A DNA stretch of 64,000 nucleotides. Origin: Fictibacillus arsenicus (GTDB lineage Bacteria; Bacillota; Bacilli; Bacillales; Fictibacillaceae). The number at the start of each line of letters is the position of its first letter. Within the stretch, counting starts at the first letter, position 1. Under the pieces are notes generated by a model that was not told the origin of the DNA, searched no databases, and saw only the letters and a list, made by a program, of their open reading frames with translations. Position numbers and translations under genes: made by a program. Below, in pieces: positions 9,527 to 59,095 of this stretch. The stretch lies in contig NZ_CP016761.1 in assembly GCF_001642935.1 (NCBI RefSeq), forward strand, positions 1,674,001-1,738,000, in the 5' to 3' direction.

Positions 9527-9554
9527 TTTCACATCAGAGCGAAAAAGCTATCTC

Positions 9555-9659
9555 ATTCCAAAAATAATAGCTGCCAATCCATATATTTTTGCCCTCAATC
9601 CAAAAGTTTTAGCCTTTAATCCAAAAGTTTTTGTGAATTATCCACGAGTCGACACACCC
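9555..9659. repeat. Intergenic tandem repeat, 21 bp period (locus A)
   Basis: Five imperfect units begin at 9555, 9576, 9597, 9618 and 9639, each exactly 21 bp apart. Each starts with ATTCC, AATCC or TATCC; the two central units share AATCCAAAAGTTTT. Conservation is strongest in the first 14 bases of the unit. It lies between the dapHL terminator and ykuS. No start codon or ribosome-binding site points to coding, although a frame is open. Two other loci in the window have the same period with different sequence (35975 and 44227). Confidence 0.8.
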
Positions 9660-27321: not shown

Positions 27322-27331
27322 ACAGATATAA

Positions 27332-27346
27332 ACGTAAGCGCTTTCA
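27332..27346 (+). promoter_or_regulatory. cre-like CcpA site in SR1 leader
   Basis: ACGTAAGCGCTTTCA fits the cre consensus WTGNAANCGNWNNCW at all constrained positions except the second base (C for T). It lies about 5-19 nt downstream of the predicted start, so bound CcpA could block transcription. In B. subtilis SR1 is repressed by sugars through CcpN and, to a lesser degree, CcpA. Confidence 0.65.
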
Positions 27347-27369
27347 AAATGCGAAGGGAGATGGAACGG

Positions 27370-27492
27370 ATGGGAGTAATCATTTGCCAAACGTGTGAGA
27401 CAACAATTGAACATTTTGAAGAGGAAAAGGTAACAACGTTGTATTCGAAAACATGTCCACATTGCCAAGAGCAAGCTAAATTACAAAAATAA
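27370..27492 (+). CDS. sr1P: GapA-binding peptide SR1P
   Basis: A 40-residue peptide beginning MGVIICQTCETTIEHFEEEK and continuing VTTLYSKTCPHC, with two CxxC pairs, as in the SR1P family. In B. subtilis SR1P binds the glyceraldehyde-3-phosphate dehydrogenase GapA, stabilises the gapA operon mRNA and promotes GapA-RNase J1 interaction. The ATG at 27370 gives the expected N-terminus; ATG 27361 three codons upstream sits too close to GGGAG. Too short for ordinary ORF thresholds. RNase J1 itself is encoded about 13 kb to the left. Confidence 0.88.
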   Translation: MGVIICQTCETTIEHFEEEKVTTLYSKTCPHCQEQAKLQK

Positions 27493-27493
27493 A

Positions 27494-27523
27494 AAGAAGA
27501 CCTGCCAAGGTCTTCTTTTTTTT
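27494..27523 (+). terminator. Terminator of SR1
   Basis: AAGAAGACCT pairs with AGGTCTTCTT around GCCA, followed by T-rich sequence; starts right after the SR1P stop codon. Confidence 0.95.
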
Positions 27524-27550
27524 GTAGTCTTACGCTAGAATGCTTCTTAA

Positions 27551-35974: not shown

Positions 35975-36058
35975 ATCACATAAAAAATAGTGTTCATCAC
36001 ATAAAAAAGGTAGAACATCACACAAAAATGACCCCTCATCATATAATTTTACAATTTA
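35975..36058. repeat. Intergenic tandem repeat, 21 bp period (locus C)
   Basis: Four units begin at 35975, 35996, 36017 and 36038, each 21 bp apart. The first three start ATCACATAAAAA or ATCACACAAAAA and the fourth ATCATATAA; the second half of each unit varies. A weak fifth unit may lie before the first. Confidence 0.8.
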
Positions 36059-40655: not shown

Positions 40656-43600
40656 ATGAGCAGAAAAATCAGCAAAGTTTTAGTAGCAAACCGAGGAGAA
40701 ATTGCAATCCGAATTTTCAGAGCATGTACAGAACTGGATATTCGAACTGTAGCAATATATTCAAAGGAAGATACTGGTTCCTATCATCGTTATAAGGCAG
40801 ATGAAGCTTACCTGGTCGGAGAAGGAAAAAAACCGATTGATGCTTATCTCGATATTGAAGGTATTATTGAAATAGCAAAAGCAAACGGAATAGATGGGAT
40901 TCATCCAGGCTATGGTTTCTTGTCAGAAAATAAAGAGTTTGCAGAGCGATGCCGTGAAGAAGGAATTATCTTTATCGGACCGGAAGAAAAACATCTTGAT
41001 GTTTTCGGAGATAAAGTAAAAGCGAGACAAGCAGCTATCGACGCCAACATTCCGGTTATCCCAGGAAGTGATGGTCCTGTTAACTCTTTAGAAGAAGTTA
41101 AAACATTTGCAGAAGAAAATGGATTTCCGATTATTATTAAAGCTTCCATGGGCGGCGGCGGCCGAGGTATGCGAATCGTGAGAAGTGAAAATTCATTAGC
41201 TGAAAGCTTTGAAAGAGCCAAGTCTGAAGCTAAGGCGGCTTTTGGTAAGGATGAAGTTTATGTTGAAAAATTCTTAGATAAACCTAAACATATCGAAGTA
41301 CAGATCCTTGGAGACTATGAAGGAAATCTCGTACATTTATATGAGCGTGACTGTTCTGTTCAAAGAAGACATCAAAAAGTAGTTGAGGTAGCACCAAGCG
41401 TTTCATTAACTGAGGAATTGCGTCATGAAATTTGTGAATCTGCGGTTTCTTTAATGGAGCATGTAGGATATGTAAATGCAGGTACAGTAGAATATCTTGT
41501 TACTCCGTCCGGAGAGTTTTATTTTATTGAAGTCAATCCTCGAGTTCAGGTTGAACATACAATTACAGAAATGGTAACCGGCATCGACATAGTTCAATCA
41601 CAAATCCTTATCGCTCAGGGCTTCTCATTGCATAGTAAGCAATTAGGAATTCCTAAGCAACAAGATATTTATTGTCATGGGTATGCCATTCAATCACGTG
41701 TTACGACTGAAGATCCAGCAAACCAGTTTATGCCTGATACAGGAAAGATCATGGCATATCGTTCAGGCGGCGGATTTGGAGTTCGTTTGGACGCTGGTAA
41801 TGGCTACCAGGGTGCAGTCATCACGCCATTTTATGATTCCTTGCTTGTGAAAGTATCAACATGGGCGTTGTCCTATGAACAAGCTGCATCTAAAATGTTA
41901 AGAAATTTAAAAGAATTCCGAATTCGCGGGATTAAAACAAATATAGCTTTCCTAGAGAACGTTGTTACACACCAAAAATTCTTATCAGGAGACTATGATA
42001 CTTCTTTTATTGATACGAGCAGTGAATTGTTTGTGTTCCCTAAACGCAAGGATAGAGGAACGAAGATGCTCTCATATATCGGAGCGACTACTATTAACGG
42101 CTTTCCTGGCCTTCAAAAGCAAGAGAAGCCATTGTTTGATAACCCTCGCATACCTAAAGTGAAACACTATGAACCAATTCCTAATGGCACAAAACAATTG
42201 TTGGACAGTGAAGGTCCGGAAGCAGTTGCTCAGTGGGTTAAGGATCAAAAGAAACTATTGCTTACTGATACAACATTCCGTGATGGTCATCAGTCGCTGC
42301 TTGCAACACGTGTCAGAACGAACGATCTCCTTCATATCGCAGAGCCGACTGCAAGACTTTGGCCAGATATGTTTTCCATGGAAATGTGGGGTGGAGCAAC
42401 GTTTGATGTAGCATACCGCTTCTTAAATGAAGATCCGTGGGACAGGCTTTTAAAGCTTAGAGAAAAAGCTCCAAATGTATTGTTCCAAATGCTTTTAAGG
42501 GCATCGAATGCTGTCGGATACAAAAATTATCCAGACAATGTCATTGAAGAATTTGTTAAAAAATCAGCAATGGCTGGAATAGATGTCTTTAGAATCTTTG
42601 ATAGCTTAAACTGGGTTGAAGGCATGAAAGTTGCTATTCATGCAGTTCGTGAAACAGGAAAAATTGCTGAAGCTGCTATTTGCTATACAGGTGATATTCT
42701 AGACTCTAGCCGTACAAAATACGATTTGAACTATTATGTGAACCTTGCCAAGGAACTTGAACAAGAAGGTGCTCATATTCTTGCAATTAAAGATATGGCA
42801 GGTCTTTTAAAACCACAGGCTGCTTATGATCTTGTGTCAGCCCTGAAGGATTCAATTGATATCCCGATCCATCTCCATACACACGATACTAGCGGGAATG
42901 GTATTTATACCTATGCGAAAGCTGCAGAAGCCGGTGTAGATATTGTGGATGTTGCATTGAGTTCAATGGCTGGTCAAACATCACAGCCAAGCGCTAACTC
43001 ATTATATTATGCGTTAACTGGAAACGAAAGACAGCCTGATTTAAACATTCAAAATGCAAATCAGCTGTCCGCGTATTGGGAAGATATTAGAAAGTATTAT
43101 GCTGGCTTTGAAAACGACATGACTGCTCCAGATCCTGAGGTATATGAACATGAAATGCCTGGCGGCCAGTTCAGTAATCTCCAGCAGCAAGCAAAAGCAG
43201 TCGGATTAGGAGAACGCTGGGATGAAGTGAAACAGATGTACAGAAGAGTTAATGACATGTTCGGGGATGTTGTTAAAGTTACGCCATCTTCTAAAGTAGT
43301 TGGGGACATGGCACTTTATATGGTTCAAAACAACTTAACTGAGGATGAAGTATACGAAAGAGGAGAATCACTCGACTTCCCAGATTCAGTAGTGGAATTC
43401 TTCCAAGGTTACCTTGGACAGCCGTATCAAGGTTTCCCTCGAGAACTTCAGCAGATCATCTTAAAAGGCAGAGAGCCATTAACTGTAAGACCTGGTGAAA
43501 CACTTGAAGCTGCAGATTTTAATGATATTAAAGAAACGTTATTCCATAAGATCAACCGTCAAGTGACAAGCTTTGATGTTCTCGCTTATGCATTGTATCC

Positions 43601-44099
43601 TAAGGTGTTCTTAGACCGTGAGAAAATGTATGCTCAATTTGGAGATGTATCTGTGCTTGATACGCCTACATTTTTCTATGGCATGACATTAGGCGAAGAA
43701 ATTGAAGTTGAAATCGAACAAGGAAAAACGCTTATCGTAAAACTAGTTTCAATCGGTGAAGCTCAAAATGATGGATCTAGAGTTCTCTATTTTGAGCTAA
43801 ACGGACAGTCACGTGAGATTGTAGTAATTGACGAAAGTGCAAAAGTAACGGTTACAGCTAAACAAAAGGTAGATCCTTCAAATCCTTCCCAAATCGGTGC
43901 GAGTATGCCAGGAACGGTAATTAAAGTACTGGTTGAGCAAGGTGAAAAAGTGAAGAAGGGTGATCACTTGATGATTACTGAAGCTATGAAGATGGAAACA
44001 ACCGTTCAAGCACCATTTGACGGACGCGTTAAATCCATTTCTGTTCAAAACGGAGAAGGCATCAGCGCTGGTGATCTATTGATTGAATTGGAAAAATAA
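40656..44099 (+). CDS. pyc: Pyruvate carboxylase
   Basis: A 1147-residue biotin enzyme that makes oxaloacetate from pyruvate, HCO3- and ATP, replenishing the TCA cycle. The biotin carboxylase domain occupies about residues 1-455 (with MGGGGRGMRIV as the ATP Gly-rich loop and FIEVNPRVQVEHT); the carboxyltransferase domain about 530-800 starts TDTTFRDGHQSLLATRVR and contains the metal ligands HLHTHDTSGNG; the biotin carrier domain ends the protein with Lys1112 in EAMKMET. It starts 22 nt after ftsW with AAAGGAGAGG. Confidence 0.97.
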   Translation: MSRKISKVLVANRGEIAIRIFRACTELDIRTVAIYSKEDTGSYHRYKADEAYLVGEGKKPIDAYLDIEGIIEIAKANGIDGIHPGYGFLSENKEFAERCREEGIIFIGPEEKHLDVFGDKVKARQAAIDANIPVIPGSDGPVNSLEEVKTFAEENGFPIIIKASMGGGGRGMRIVRSENSLAESFERAKSEAKAAFGKDEVYVEKFLDKPKHIEVQILGDYEGNLVHLYERDCSVQRRHQKVVEVAPSVSLTEELRHEICESAVSLMEHVGYVNAGTVEYLVTPSGEFYFIEVNPRVQVEHTITEMVTGIDIVQSQILIAQGFSLHSKQLGIPKQQDIYCHGYAIQSRVTTEDPANQFMPDTGKIMAYRSGGGFGVRLDAGNGYQGAVITPFYDSLLVKVSTWALSYEQAASKMLRNLKEFRIRGIKTNIAFLENVVTHQKFLSGDYDTSFIDTSSELFVFPKRKDRGTKMLSYIGATTINGFPGLQKQEKPLFDNPRIPKVKHYEPIPNGTKQLLDSEGPEAVAQWVKDQKKLLLTDTTFRDGHQSLLATRVRTNDLLHIAEPTARLWPDMFSMEMWGGATFDVAYRFLNEDPWDRLLKLREKAPNVLFQMLLRASNAVGYKNYPDNVIEEFVKKSAMAGIDVFRIFDSLNWVEGMKVAIHAVRETGKIAEAAICYTGDILDSSRTKYDLNYYVNLAKELEQEGAHILAIKDMAGLLKPQAAYDLVSALKDSIDIPIHLHTHDTSGNGIYTYAKAAEAGVDIVDVALSSMAGQTSQPSANSLYYALTGNERQPDLNIQNANQLSAYWEDIRKYYAGFENDMTAPDPEVYEHEMPGGQFSNLQQQAKAVGLGERWDEVKQMYRRVNDMFGDVVKVTPSSKVVGDMALYMVQNNLTEDEVYERGESLDFPDSVVEFFQGYLGQPYQGFPRELQQIILKGREPLTVRPGETLEAADFNDIKETLFHKINRQVTSFDVLAYALYPKVFLDREKMYAQFGDVSVLDTPTFFYGMTLGEEIEVEIEQGKTLIVKLVSIGEAQNDGSRVLYFELNGQSREIVVIDESAKVTVTAKQKVDPSNPSQIGASMPGTVIKVLVEQGEKVKKGDHLMITEAMKMETTVQAPFDGRVKSISVQNGEGISAGDLLIELEK

Positions 44100-44104
44100 C
44101 TACA

Positions 44105-44136
44105 AAAAAGGCGTCTCAATAAGAGACGTCTTTTTG
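44105..44136 (+). terminator. Terminator of pyc
   Basis: AAAGGCGTCTC pairs with GAGACGTCTTT around AATAA, ending in T5. Confidence 0.9.
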
Positions 44137-44226
44137 TTGGTAAAGTTATGTTTCCGCATGTATACATGGTGATTTGTTAATGGGGGATGTTGTGAAGTTT
44201 CCGGTTCGCAATATATCTTGTGAAAA

Positions 44227-44331
44227 GGTGAAATTATAGACCAGATAGGTGAAATTGTAGGCCGGATAGGTGAAATTGTAGCCATTAAAGGTGAAATAAT
44301 TGCATTATTTGGTGAATATATTATTGGATTT
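44227..44331. repeat. Intergenic tandem repeat, 21 bp period (locus B)
   Basis: Five units begin at 44227, 44248, 44269, 44290 and 44311, each exactly 21 bp apart. All begin GGTGAA; the first three share GGTGAAATT-TAG. The second half of the unit varies more. The frame through the array is open (GEIVGRI-like heptads) but a TGA stands just before it and no start codon or ribosome-binding site is present. It lies between the pyc terminator and MITE-like copy 3. Confidence 0.85.
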
Positions 44332-44399
44332 CGTCAAATTAAGTTAAAAATACCTCTGACTGTAAGGATTAATCATTTCTACGAGCTCTTCTCGCAAGG

Positions 44400-44634
44400 T
44401 GATTGTAGTGCAAGGTGCGTGCCAGCCACCTGATTATGCCTCTTGCAAGGCATGCAACGAGGAACACACTTAGTAAAGATTTACCTTGTAGACGCAGGAG
44501 CACACAAACTTCCTTAAATGTGAGACTCCTAATGGTGCAAAGCGCCGTGGAGGCTCACCGCACGCCCCGCGGAAAGTGAGCATCTGTAACGGAAATCAAC
44601 TACTTTCAAGAGCAACAAAGTTTAAGATAACAGC
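44400..44634 (+). repeat. MITE-like dispersed repeat, copy 3 (rearranged)
   Basis: The right half (44513-44634: GAGACTCCTAATGG, GAGGCTCACCGCACGCCCCG, then AAGAGCAACAAAG) follows the family, but the left half is replaced or scrambled. About 100 bp with several AAGGTG/CTTGCAAGG segments and a partial inverted repeat (CCTCTTGCA/TGCAACGAGG) separate GTGCAAGGTGCG from the core. It lies between convergent pyc and ctaA. Confidence 0.65.
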
Positions 44635-44648
44635 GTTTTAAAAAAAAT

Positions 44649-44694
44649 AGCTGACAGAAAAGTTCTATAGAAGAACCTCTGTCAGCCTTTTAAT
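44649..44694 (-). terminator. Terminator of ctaA
   Basis: GCTGACAGA pairs with TCTGTCAGC around an inner hairpin (GTTCT/AGAAC); the minus strand continues into TATTTTTTT. Confidence 0.85.
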
Positions 44695-44697
44695 GAA

Positions 44698-45582
44698 CTA
44701 TTTTCGATAAACAATTAAGGCTACAAAACTAAGTGTTCCGAATAAGAAAGAAATAATTAATCCGTGTGATAAAGCAACAAATAAGTTTAAGTTTGATAAG
44801 ACGATCATTGCGCCAGATATACCTTGAAGTAAAACAAATAACGCAGCAAACTGTAACCCCTTATTTAGTGCTTTTTGTTCTTTATAATGCTTTCTAGCGT
44901 GGTACCAGGAATAAATAATCCAAATTAATAGAACAATAGCTGCAATCCGATGGAGCAGATGTATGCTCGCTTGAGAACCTAAATCAGCTATCGTACCGCT
45001 GCACGACGGGAACTCTGGCCCGCATCCCATGCTTGAGCCTGTATGCCTTACAAGAGCACCTGTGTAAACAACTGCATATAGGTAAGCAAAGAGCCAATAG
45101 AGGTTCTTTTTAAATGCTTCGGAAACTCTAGCAACAAATGGATCTTCACGCTTTTCAAAAGATAGCAGTGCAAGAAGCAGCACACTGGCAAATGATACGA
45201 GTGAGAAACCAAAATGTGAAGCGAGTACAGCTGATGATTGGCTCCATATAACAGCAGCGGCTCCTAAAAGACCTTGAAGAACAATGAAAAATACAGCAGA
45301 TCCTGCTAGTATTTTAACTTCTTTTCTATGAGGATCTCTTTTCCACGCCCATATTGCTAAAATAATTACTAGAATACCAAGCCATGCAGATACATAGCGG
45401 TGACTGACTTCAATGATCGTTTCCAGCTTTGGCTGAGTCGGCAGCAATTCTCCATAGCAAAGGGGCCAAGAATTACCGCAGCCGTCGCCTGAATCTGTTT
45501 TTGTAACAACTGCCCCCATAAGTAGAACGAGCAGCATGCCGAATGATGTAATAATAGAATAAATTTGATAAGCTCTTTTCAA
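44698..45582 (-). CDS. ctaA: Haem A synthase
   Basis: A 294-residue membrane enzyme with eight spans that oxidises the C8 methyl of haem O to the formyl of haem A for cytochrome oxidase. It has the GAVVTKTDSGDGCGNSWPLC N-terminal motif with the paired Cys, EVSHRYVS with His ligands, and the second-half HTGSSMGCGPEFPSCSG and HLLHRIAA motifs. The start is TTG after AGGTGAAAG. It is divergent from ctaBCDEFG, as in B. subtilis. Confidence 0.95.
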   Translation of the reverse strand: MKRAYQIYSIITSFGMLLVLLMGAVVTKTDSGDGCGNSWPLCYGELLPTQPKLETIIEVSHRYVSAWLGILVIILAIWAWKRDPHRKEVKILAGSAVFFIVLQGLLGAAAVIWSQSSAVLASHFGFSLVSFASVLLLALLSFEKREDPFVARVSEAFKKNLYWLFAYLYAVVYTGALVRHTGSSMGCGPEFPSCSGTIADLGSQASIHLLHRIAAIVLLIWIIYSWYHARKHYKEQKALNKGLQFAALFVLLQGISGAMIVLSNLNLFVALSHGLIISFLFGTLSFVALIVYRK

Positions 45583-58879: not shown

Positions 58880-58948
58880 ATCAGATGCTCCTTTCTCCTT
58901 CCTCAATGTAGCATAACAAAAAGCCGTTATAAAGGGTTTTACACATGA

Positions 58949-58976
58949 AAAAAACCTGCAGCATTTGCTGCAGGTT
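58949..58976 (-). terminator. Minus-strand terminator upstream of ylbH leader
   Basis: On the minus strand AACCTGCAGC pairs exactly with GCTGCAGGTT around a 4 nt loop and is followed by TTTTTC. Its orientation implies transcription entering from 59.0-59.2 kb on the minus strand. Confidence 0.75.
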
Positions 58977-59017
58977 GCCTTTAAAACAAAATCACTTCTG
59001 TTCAAAGGCGATGGGAG

Positions 59018-59095
59018 AGGAGAAACCGGATGAAGAACTTATGGGGAGTAAGTCTTCTCCGCGGTTGGCAACAACATCGTTCGTGATGTTGTTAT
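59018..59095 (+). ncRNA. ylbH leader-like structured RNA
   Basis: Two hairpins lie upstream of ylbH (rsmD). Hairpin 1: AACCG..GAAGAACTTA (59024-59041) pairs with TAAGTCTTC..CGGTT (59049-59066) around a TGGGGAG loop. Hairpin 2: AACAACATC (59070-59078) pairs exactly with GATGTTGTT (59085-59093). A conserved structured element called the ylbH leader is known at this position in Bacilli. The strand is not certain, because a terminator facing the opposite way lies 45 bp to the left. Confidence 0.55.

Follow-up and report, generated by a model that had tools for sequence, protein, structure and literature searches.

Why do short DNA words recur every two helical turns between the genes of a bacterium? 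The question is raised by a window of 64,000 nucleotides (G000:C1:1674001-1738000) of the 4.06-Mb Fictibacillus chromosome, in particular by the region between pyc, the pyruvate carboxylase gene (40656-44099, + strand), and a convergent, ctaA-like gene (COX15-CtaA; 44698-45582, - strand), both assigned by Pfam. An earlier inspection of the letters, here called the sequence-only reading, had noticed five GGTGAA units at this place and two more loci in the window with the same exact 21-bp period and other words. It considered tandem duplication in place, a DNA-binding or chromosome-organising factor that needs the phasing and, remotely, decayed heptad-coding repeats.

The array between the two genes, array B, is real. 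It extends from 44227 to 44343 on the + strand. Its five GGTGAAATT-type units start at 44227, 44248, 44269, 44290 and 44311 without any shift, precisely as first read, and a sixth one, degenerate (CGTCAAATTAAG) but in phase, begins at 44332. At lag 21 the array scores 34 of 42 possible matches; 2000 Markov-simulated versions of its intergenic region, tried at all lags between 10 and 60, reached 27 at best, which places the array above all of them. Upstream of it, inspection by eye reveals a probable intrinsic terminator of pyc, GGCGTCTC-AATAA-GAGACGTC with a T tract (44110-44135, +), followed by a probable leader, GATGTTGTGAAGTTTCCGGTTCGCAATATATCTTGTG (44186-44222, +). To judge from its letters, the latter probably is akin to a drifted form of the leader that precedes a CGTGGGATT array at the same place in a genus mate (G009). 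Separate from the arrays is a dispersed repeat of about 250 bp containing GCGCCGTGGAGGCTCACCGCACGCCCCGCGGAAAGTGAGCATCTGTAACGGAAATCAACTAC, seen at 44394-44650, with at least 12 further matches in the same genome and many in genus mates.

The other two loci are also real, 21-periodic and different in wording from array B. Array A (9552-9650, - strand, step 21) consists of AATCC(AAAA) words, reading AAAACTTTTGGATT on the other strand, and belongs to what we call family II. A leader pattern search detected its leader, TGTCGACTCGTGGAT, at 9640-9654 on the - strand (G000:C1:1683640-1683654), in phase with the words. Array C (35975-36049, + strand, step 21) has four ATCACATAAAAA-type units, the last two being degenerate, and is a member of family III. 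Elsewhere in the window Rfam recognises the SR1 sRNA at 27323-27525 and a ylbH leader at 58945-59064. The claim of three loci with one period and different words thus holds within the window; genome-wide the period is 20-21 and not always 21.

The phenomenon is by no means restricted to the window. Chains of at least three 10-mers with at most two mismatches between neighbours were sought in 41 stretches comprising 864 kb, 121 kb of it intergenic. Steps 19, 20, 21 and 22 yielded 14, 36, 37 and 21 chains, respectively; all other steps from 10 to 60 yielded 0-6, except the doubled steps 40-43 with 10-19. The chains at steps 20 and 21 largely represent the same arrays. Markov simulation of the intergenic pieces predicts a mean of 1.89 chains at step 21, with a maximum of 7 in 100 runs. 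Two of the 37 are 16S rRNA genes (L039:19109 and L040:12170), which remain in this number and in the autocorrelation data below and were left out of the gene-context and leader-phasing counts. The remaining 35 array hits in 864 kb make the shared design with several words far larger than had been claimed. Extrapolation leads to an estimate of some 160 arrays per chromosome, and probably there are well over a hundred. The weak chains at L057:8028 and, at step 20, at L047:18864 and L093:9165 may be due to chance. A regular expression demanding three exact words misses most arrays, finding none in 17 × 20 kb of genus mates where the chain scan finds several.

Plain autocorrelation, which the sequence-only reading had recommended, gives a modest answer. 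For the intergenic DNA of the first 464 kb the value at lag 21 is 0.2884, compared with a median of 0.2728 (z 3.3); lag 4 does equally well. The signal is weak because the arrays occupy a small part of intergenic DNA. The second recommendation, to look at the orthologous regions of array B, gave a divided picture: an array is present in 5 of 17 genus mates, in two of them with the same word and in three with other words (GTGCATAGA, CGTGGGATT and GACTTAATT), and no array is seen in the other 12. The G009 array among them matches at only 23 of 42 positions at lag 21, its units having been read by eye. Orthologous arrays and a genome-wide enrichment of steps 20-21, the joint lack of which would have spoken against the idea, are thus both on record.

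What recurs is a word of about 9-12 bp, found at many loci, followed by 9-10 bp that are free. Some fifteen words were met, at one or more loci, among them TTTCGCTCAAAA, TTTCACGCAAAA, TTTCRCCC, ATCACATAAAAA, AATCCAAAA, TCCCACGTTAATT, AATCTCACGAA, TTAGGTCTAATT, TCTATGAGTCAAA and GGTGAAATT. That the same words serve many loci argues against a purely local process. One leader type can precede arrays of different words. The family I leader, ACGGTACGTGTTCTTNNNTNNNTTACACGTT, is present in 55 copies in the home genome if up to two mismatches are allowed. A search of 41 genomes finds it in 17, which all belong to the 18 Fictibacillus genomes; none was found in the 23 searched genomes outside the genus or in the reversed control. 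The family II leader, TGTCGACTCGTGG, was found in 15 of these 41 genomes, again all Fictibacillus, with a single match of the reversed control, in G023. It is itself phased: in 42 family II leaders a further GTCG stands at -10 in 20 cases, at -20 in 10 and elsewhere in 3. The motif TTTGTCGA is about five times denser near arrays (12 in 20.0 kb, 0.60 per kb) than in other intergenic DNA (15 in 139.8 kb, 0.11 per kb); it was seen in leaders of families II and IV, e.g., at L097:10004 and L089:12685. The TGTCGAA of leaders presumably resembles a Spo0A box. Some family II elements (L054:15540-15800, L090:8400-8640, L145 and L156) appear by eye to be flanked by direct GGGGTATC-like repeats about 200 bp apart, and then by a hairpin of the TTTCGTTCACCGAAA type.

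Family III lends itself best to dissection. A scan of the genome collection for ATCACATAAAAA-N9-ATCACATAA found at least 80 stretches, of which 75 among the matches listed are from Fictibacillus. The other five (two in a Dysgonamonadaceae MAG, two palindromic pairs and one single pair) were left out of the spacing and column counts, as were two-unit arrays from the latter. The spacing in the 75 listed Fictibacillus arrays, some of them mutual orthologues, is 21 in 257 of 272 cases, 20 in 13 and 22 in 2. Among 82 unique arrays of at least three units, 5 have three, 16 four, 54 five and 7 six. The word, columns 1-12, carries 1.0-2.4 bits per column, the spacer, columns 13-21, 0.01-0.45 bits. In this set, which was collected by the word, each position of ATCACAT is kept in at least 256 of 291 units. 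Spacers are no more alike within an array (0.319) than between arrays (0.310), nor are those of ten family III arrays of one genome alike (0.38 versus 0.42 for random draws). As a separate observation, the Dysgonamonadaceae MAG, an unrelated bacterium, contains tandem 21-bp arrays of the ATCACATAAAAACGTATTACT type with near-identical spacers (L202 and L254).

In 204 unit pairs from 57 family III pairs of equal copy number, 6.4% of the word positions and 52% of the spacer positions are mismatched; the set was collected by exact word, which inflates the conservation of the word, and the pairs overlap. A spacing of 21 in both partners was found for 204 of 229 unit pairs and a difference in 25. 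Units stay in register, and the 9-bp spacers are common to close orthologues and differ the more, the more distant these are. Copy number is equal in 57 of 99 orthologous pairs and unequal in 42, and at array B and two of its orthologues it is 5, 3 and 3. Five is therefore the mode, not the rule. Duplication in place, as first considered, can account for the addition of units: units 1 and 2 of array B have 7 of 9 spacer bases in common, and two orthologues have three units against five. It does not account for the ATCACATAAAAA family, where the equal likeness of spacers within and between arrays speaks against it. The alternative of a factor needing phasing fares better, since words are conserved, spacers drift, the spacing is mostly kept and the family II leaders are phased by 10 bp; to that extent the DNA pattern supports it.

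One locus, chosen for its array in the home genome, was followed through the genus. The 1.5-kb region around it was located in all 18 Fictibacillus genomes without making use of the word, and 14 could be read, the remaining 4 not being joined at both flanks. In 9 of the 14 it contains ATCACATAAAAA-type arrays: five units in G000 and G014, three in G006, and five in G016, G013, G015, G005, G003 and G002, there with spacers that do not resemble the G000 ones. At the same place, G-type units (ATCACGG, once ATCAAGG) number five in both G001 and G011. In G009 a family I element takes the place of the array, in G004 there is one relic word, and G008 has nothing of the kind. The result agrees with that of the orthologous pairs.

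In one species, F. barbaricus (G001), two dialects coexist without sharing an array. Twenty stretches contain 22 arrays, 8 of the pure AT type and 14 of the G type, with no mixing of real AT and G words among the 22. The stretches had been picked by pattern matches, and the pattern permitted mixed dialects; in one G-type array (L345) the outer units, added by permissive extension, are dubious. Purity of this kind points to a joint reading of all sites in an array.

Within the order, 299 genomes were searched for the triple family III word; it is present in 7, which are all among the 8 Fictibacillus genomes of this set. G024, from another genus of the same family, has arrays of its own with other words, four at step 21 and four at step 20, against a background at other steps of 0.15 on average and 1 at most. 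G019, a genus mate of G024, has two and two, a yield that its background (mean 0.37, maximum 3) might reach by itself; in one 20-bp array there (L368:7329) the spacers are nearly identical (GAAAATTATGAACCCAGA), and it may have been born recently. In samples of 80-160 kb each, steps 19-22 gave 0, 1, 2 and 2 chains in G023, 0, 0, 1 and 1 in G028, and 0, 0, 0 and 1 in G021; G020, G030 and G033 gave none.

The arrays sit near gene ends. With genes called throughout by a simple longest-ORF procedure, the share of intergenic regions of at least 150 bp that hold an array is 10/40 for convergent, 18/153 for tandem and 2/65 for divergent ones (convergent versus divergent, P = 0.001; any 3' end versus divergent, P = 0.013). 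Among the matches listed, none of the 72 family III arrays with both neighbours known lies in a divergent region. Between gene end and array, a terminator-like hairpin is seen by eye, uncounted, in many of the flanks listed. Six neighbours of arrays in the window were scanned: pyc, ctaA, an M20 peptidase, UPF0180, YhcN/YlaJ and one without match; none of the five that match is a replication or partition gene.

Family I has, in addition, a sense of direction. With the origin placed at dnaA (4.04 Mb) and the arms assumed to be split at mid-chromosome, 46 of its 55 leaders point against replication (right arm, 26 of 30; left arm, 20 of 25), as do 35 of the 42 elements with gene context. The bias is also seen between convergent genes, a setting with balanced gene direction (15 of 19, P = 0.02). 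Only 4 of the 55 leaders lie between 1.5 and 2.5 Mb (P = 0.0015). For family III, 13 listed loci of the home genome display no clear replication polarity.

In our opinion the arrays are best read as helically phased docking tracks for putative sequence-specific DNA-binding proteins at the ends of transcription units. Going by the sequence pattern, we would give this view about an even chance. The protein would line up along one face of the helix at every second turn, some five subunits or dimers in a row. Its binding site would be the 9-12-bp word, and the spacer of 9-10 bp would matter by its length alone. Several related specificities, or dialects, would each serve many loci, and an array would work only with sites of one dialect, which would keep arrays pure. 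The leader would probably start or anchor the row, be it by the 10-bp-phased TGTCG repeats of family II or by the ACGGTACGTGTTCTT..TTACACGTT of family I. The row, finally, might bound transcription units or chromosomal loops, either as a roadblock to read-through or antisense transcription or as an attachment site. This last proposal is made because the arrays lie near gene 3' ends, often past the terminator, and avoid divergent promoter regions. The observations themselves comprise the phasing, the words, the purity of dialects in one species, the conservation at loci, the placement at 3' ends and the orientation bias of family I. We infer the boundary role from position only; the protein and its cooperative loading are inferred as well.

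Free spacers of kept length, sharply delimited words, phasing at 10 and 20-21 bp and a modal number of five are the trace expected of selection on protein sites along one face of B-DNA. Several observations count against docking. The placement at 3' ends could reflect mere tolerance; family I partly behaves like a copied element, with spacers in common and an orientation that goes with replication, as insertion might bring about; the listed family III loci lack a clear polarity; copy number often differs between orthologues; the array is absent from 12 of the 17 orthologous regions of array B; and the 25 deviating spacings mentioned above do not please a strict phasing. Also, no large genus-specific family of DNA-binding paralogues showed up in 1162 proteins of the home genome, a sample of about 28%; the largest families in it look, by sequence, like ABC-type, LysR and LacI proteins.

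The main rival, which we consider unlikely but take seriously, holds that the arrays are non-autonomous mobile elements. An array would be a multi-site transposon end or a REP-like unit that is inserted after terminators, oriented to replication and moved by a transposase acting in trans; the words would be its sites and the dialects its transposase lineages. The case is strongest for family I. Its leader is common to 55 loci of the home genome and absent from the searched genomes outside the genus, several of its arrays in the home genome have, by eye, spacers in common, its polarity is pronounced, and at the followed locus one of its elements stands where the relatives have family III. Moreover, we take the TGTCGA leaders to resemble the ends of Tn7- or Mu-type elements. 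For family III the idea is less attractive, as its ten arrays from one genome bear no trace of spacer copying and arrays keep their places between species. In unsystematic inspection, neither a second inverted end nor a target duplication was noticed. One family I element compared with plasmids and one family III array compared with phages by blastn found no match. A candidate transposase does exist: a Y1_Tnp (RAYT-like) gene is present in all 16 Fictibacillus genomes searched, as a single copy in 14 of them, that of the home genome being at G000:C1:3685349-3685681 (L374). Yet this conserved gene has, within the surrounding 6.5-7 kb, no blastn match to an array, a leader or the 250-bp repeat in any of the ten genomes inspected; a single weak chain was seen, in G007.

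A bolder reading, which we regard as doubtful, makes the arrays a chromosome address system with multiple dialects. They would label gene ends, and arrays of the same dialect would be brought together; each dialect might have its own cognate protein for this, or double helices might be compared directly at every second turn. In evolution, dialects would be rewritten array by array, with place and phase being kept.

To return to docking proteins, it might be argued that none is needed, because the DNA may bend by itself: most words contain an A-tract, and an A-tract at every 21 bp would imply intrinsic curvature. Family III indeed presents AAAAA at this interval, and AAA, AAAA or AATT is found in many other words. 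Against this, ATCACAT is conserved as strictly as described and is replaced as a unit in two species, and the CACCC-type word has no A-tract. We judge this explanation improbable.

Still a little less probable is a function in RNA. The arrays would be transcribed past the terminators, and the words would be sites for an RNA-binding protein or a small RNA. The position near gene 3' ends, often beyond terminators, and an orientation that partly follows the gene are in line with this. Against it, six strands of three arrays fold no better than shuffled sequences (z from -1.13 to +1.01), and in five sources comprising 144 kb Rfam recognises T-box, ylbH leader and SR1 only, none of them at an array; membership in a known RNA family is thus not seen there. 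In tandem settings both orientations to the gene occur, 29 and 14 times among the family III matches listed, and the phasing by 10 and 20-21 bp fits B-DNA.

An ordinary minisatellite, that is, 21-bp tandem copies made by slippage and then decaying, has very little in its favour beyond the 18 of 21 bases shared by units 1 and 2 of array B and the varying copy numbers of orthologues. Decay should hit word and spacer alike, but the spacers erode far more and the boundary between the two is sharp; other periods are not enriched, and the same words are met at many loci. Because of this contrast between word and spacer and of the shuffle-like folding, both the plain minisatellite and RNA structure were rejected. 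Decayed heptad-coding repeats, with seven codons per 21 bp, may practically be forgotten, the open frames at loci A and B notwithstanding: several families jitter between 20 and 21, the spacer mismatches of orthologous family III arrays have no three-base rhythm, and one frame of the family III word reads TAA. For families I and III this reading is refuted.

If the sites are occupied, hundreds of exactly phased sites near the gene ends of a soil bacterium would serve a set of putative DNA-binding factors. This would raise the question of how bacteria bound their transcription units and loops. The genus would further offer a natural experiment in which a word changes across every unit while the spacers drift freely.

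A description of such phased arrays was not found in the openly licensed literature; one could exist in closed sources. Among the systems to compare are iterons and the centromere arrays of plasmids (parC, tubC), in which directly repeated sites, set whole helical turns apart, are loaded cooperatively with protein. These are single loci beside rep or par genes. The Fictibacillus arrays likewise are direct repeats at whole helical turns, but they are dispersed over the estimated 160 chromosomal loci and come in several dialects, and no replication or partition gene was recognised among the six neighbours scanned in the window. From CRISPR- or TIGR-like guide arrays they differ in that the 9-bp spacers of family III are common to close orthologues and diverge with distance, without a turnover of the acquisition type.

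Three further systems deserve comparison, of which the TAACTGA repeats and REP/BIME come nearest. In Neurospora RIP, interspersed matches at a helical period of 11-12 bp suffice for homology recognition (PMC4858203); this is a fungal mutation process and provides a formal analogy only. The TAACTGA intergenic direct repeats of Beggiatoaceae form 169 sets of 2-6 copies in one genome and have no assigned function (PMC4679880). They consist of one heptamer, mostly just upstream of start codons, whereas the Fictibacillus arrays use many words, keep a fixed helical phase and are found near 3' ends; the scarcity of arrays in divergent regions compared with convergent ones (2/65 versus 10/40) does not agree with start-codon placement. 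REP sequences and their BIME assemblies exceed 100 extragenic copies per genome, contain protein binding sites, have species-specific variants and have been suggested to function in chromosome organisation and termination (PMC2817692). According to the same source, REPs are palindromes that alternate in orientation within BIMEs and are linked to RAYT transposases. The array words, in contrast, are direct, non-palindromic and phased at two turns, neither strand of three arrays folds better than its shuffled versions, and the RAYT-like Y1_Tnp gene had no array beside it in ten out of ten genomes inspected. What the Fictibacillus arrays have in common with REP and BIME, as presented there, is their high copy number, their extragenic location and their frequent position at the 3' ends of genes.
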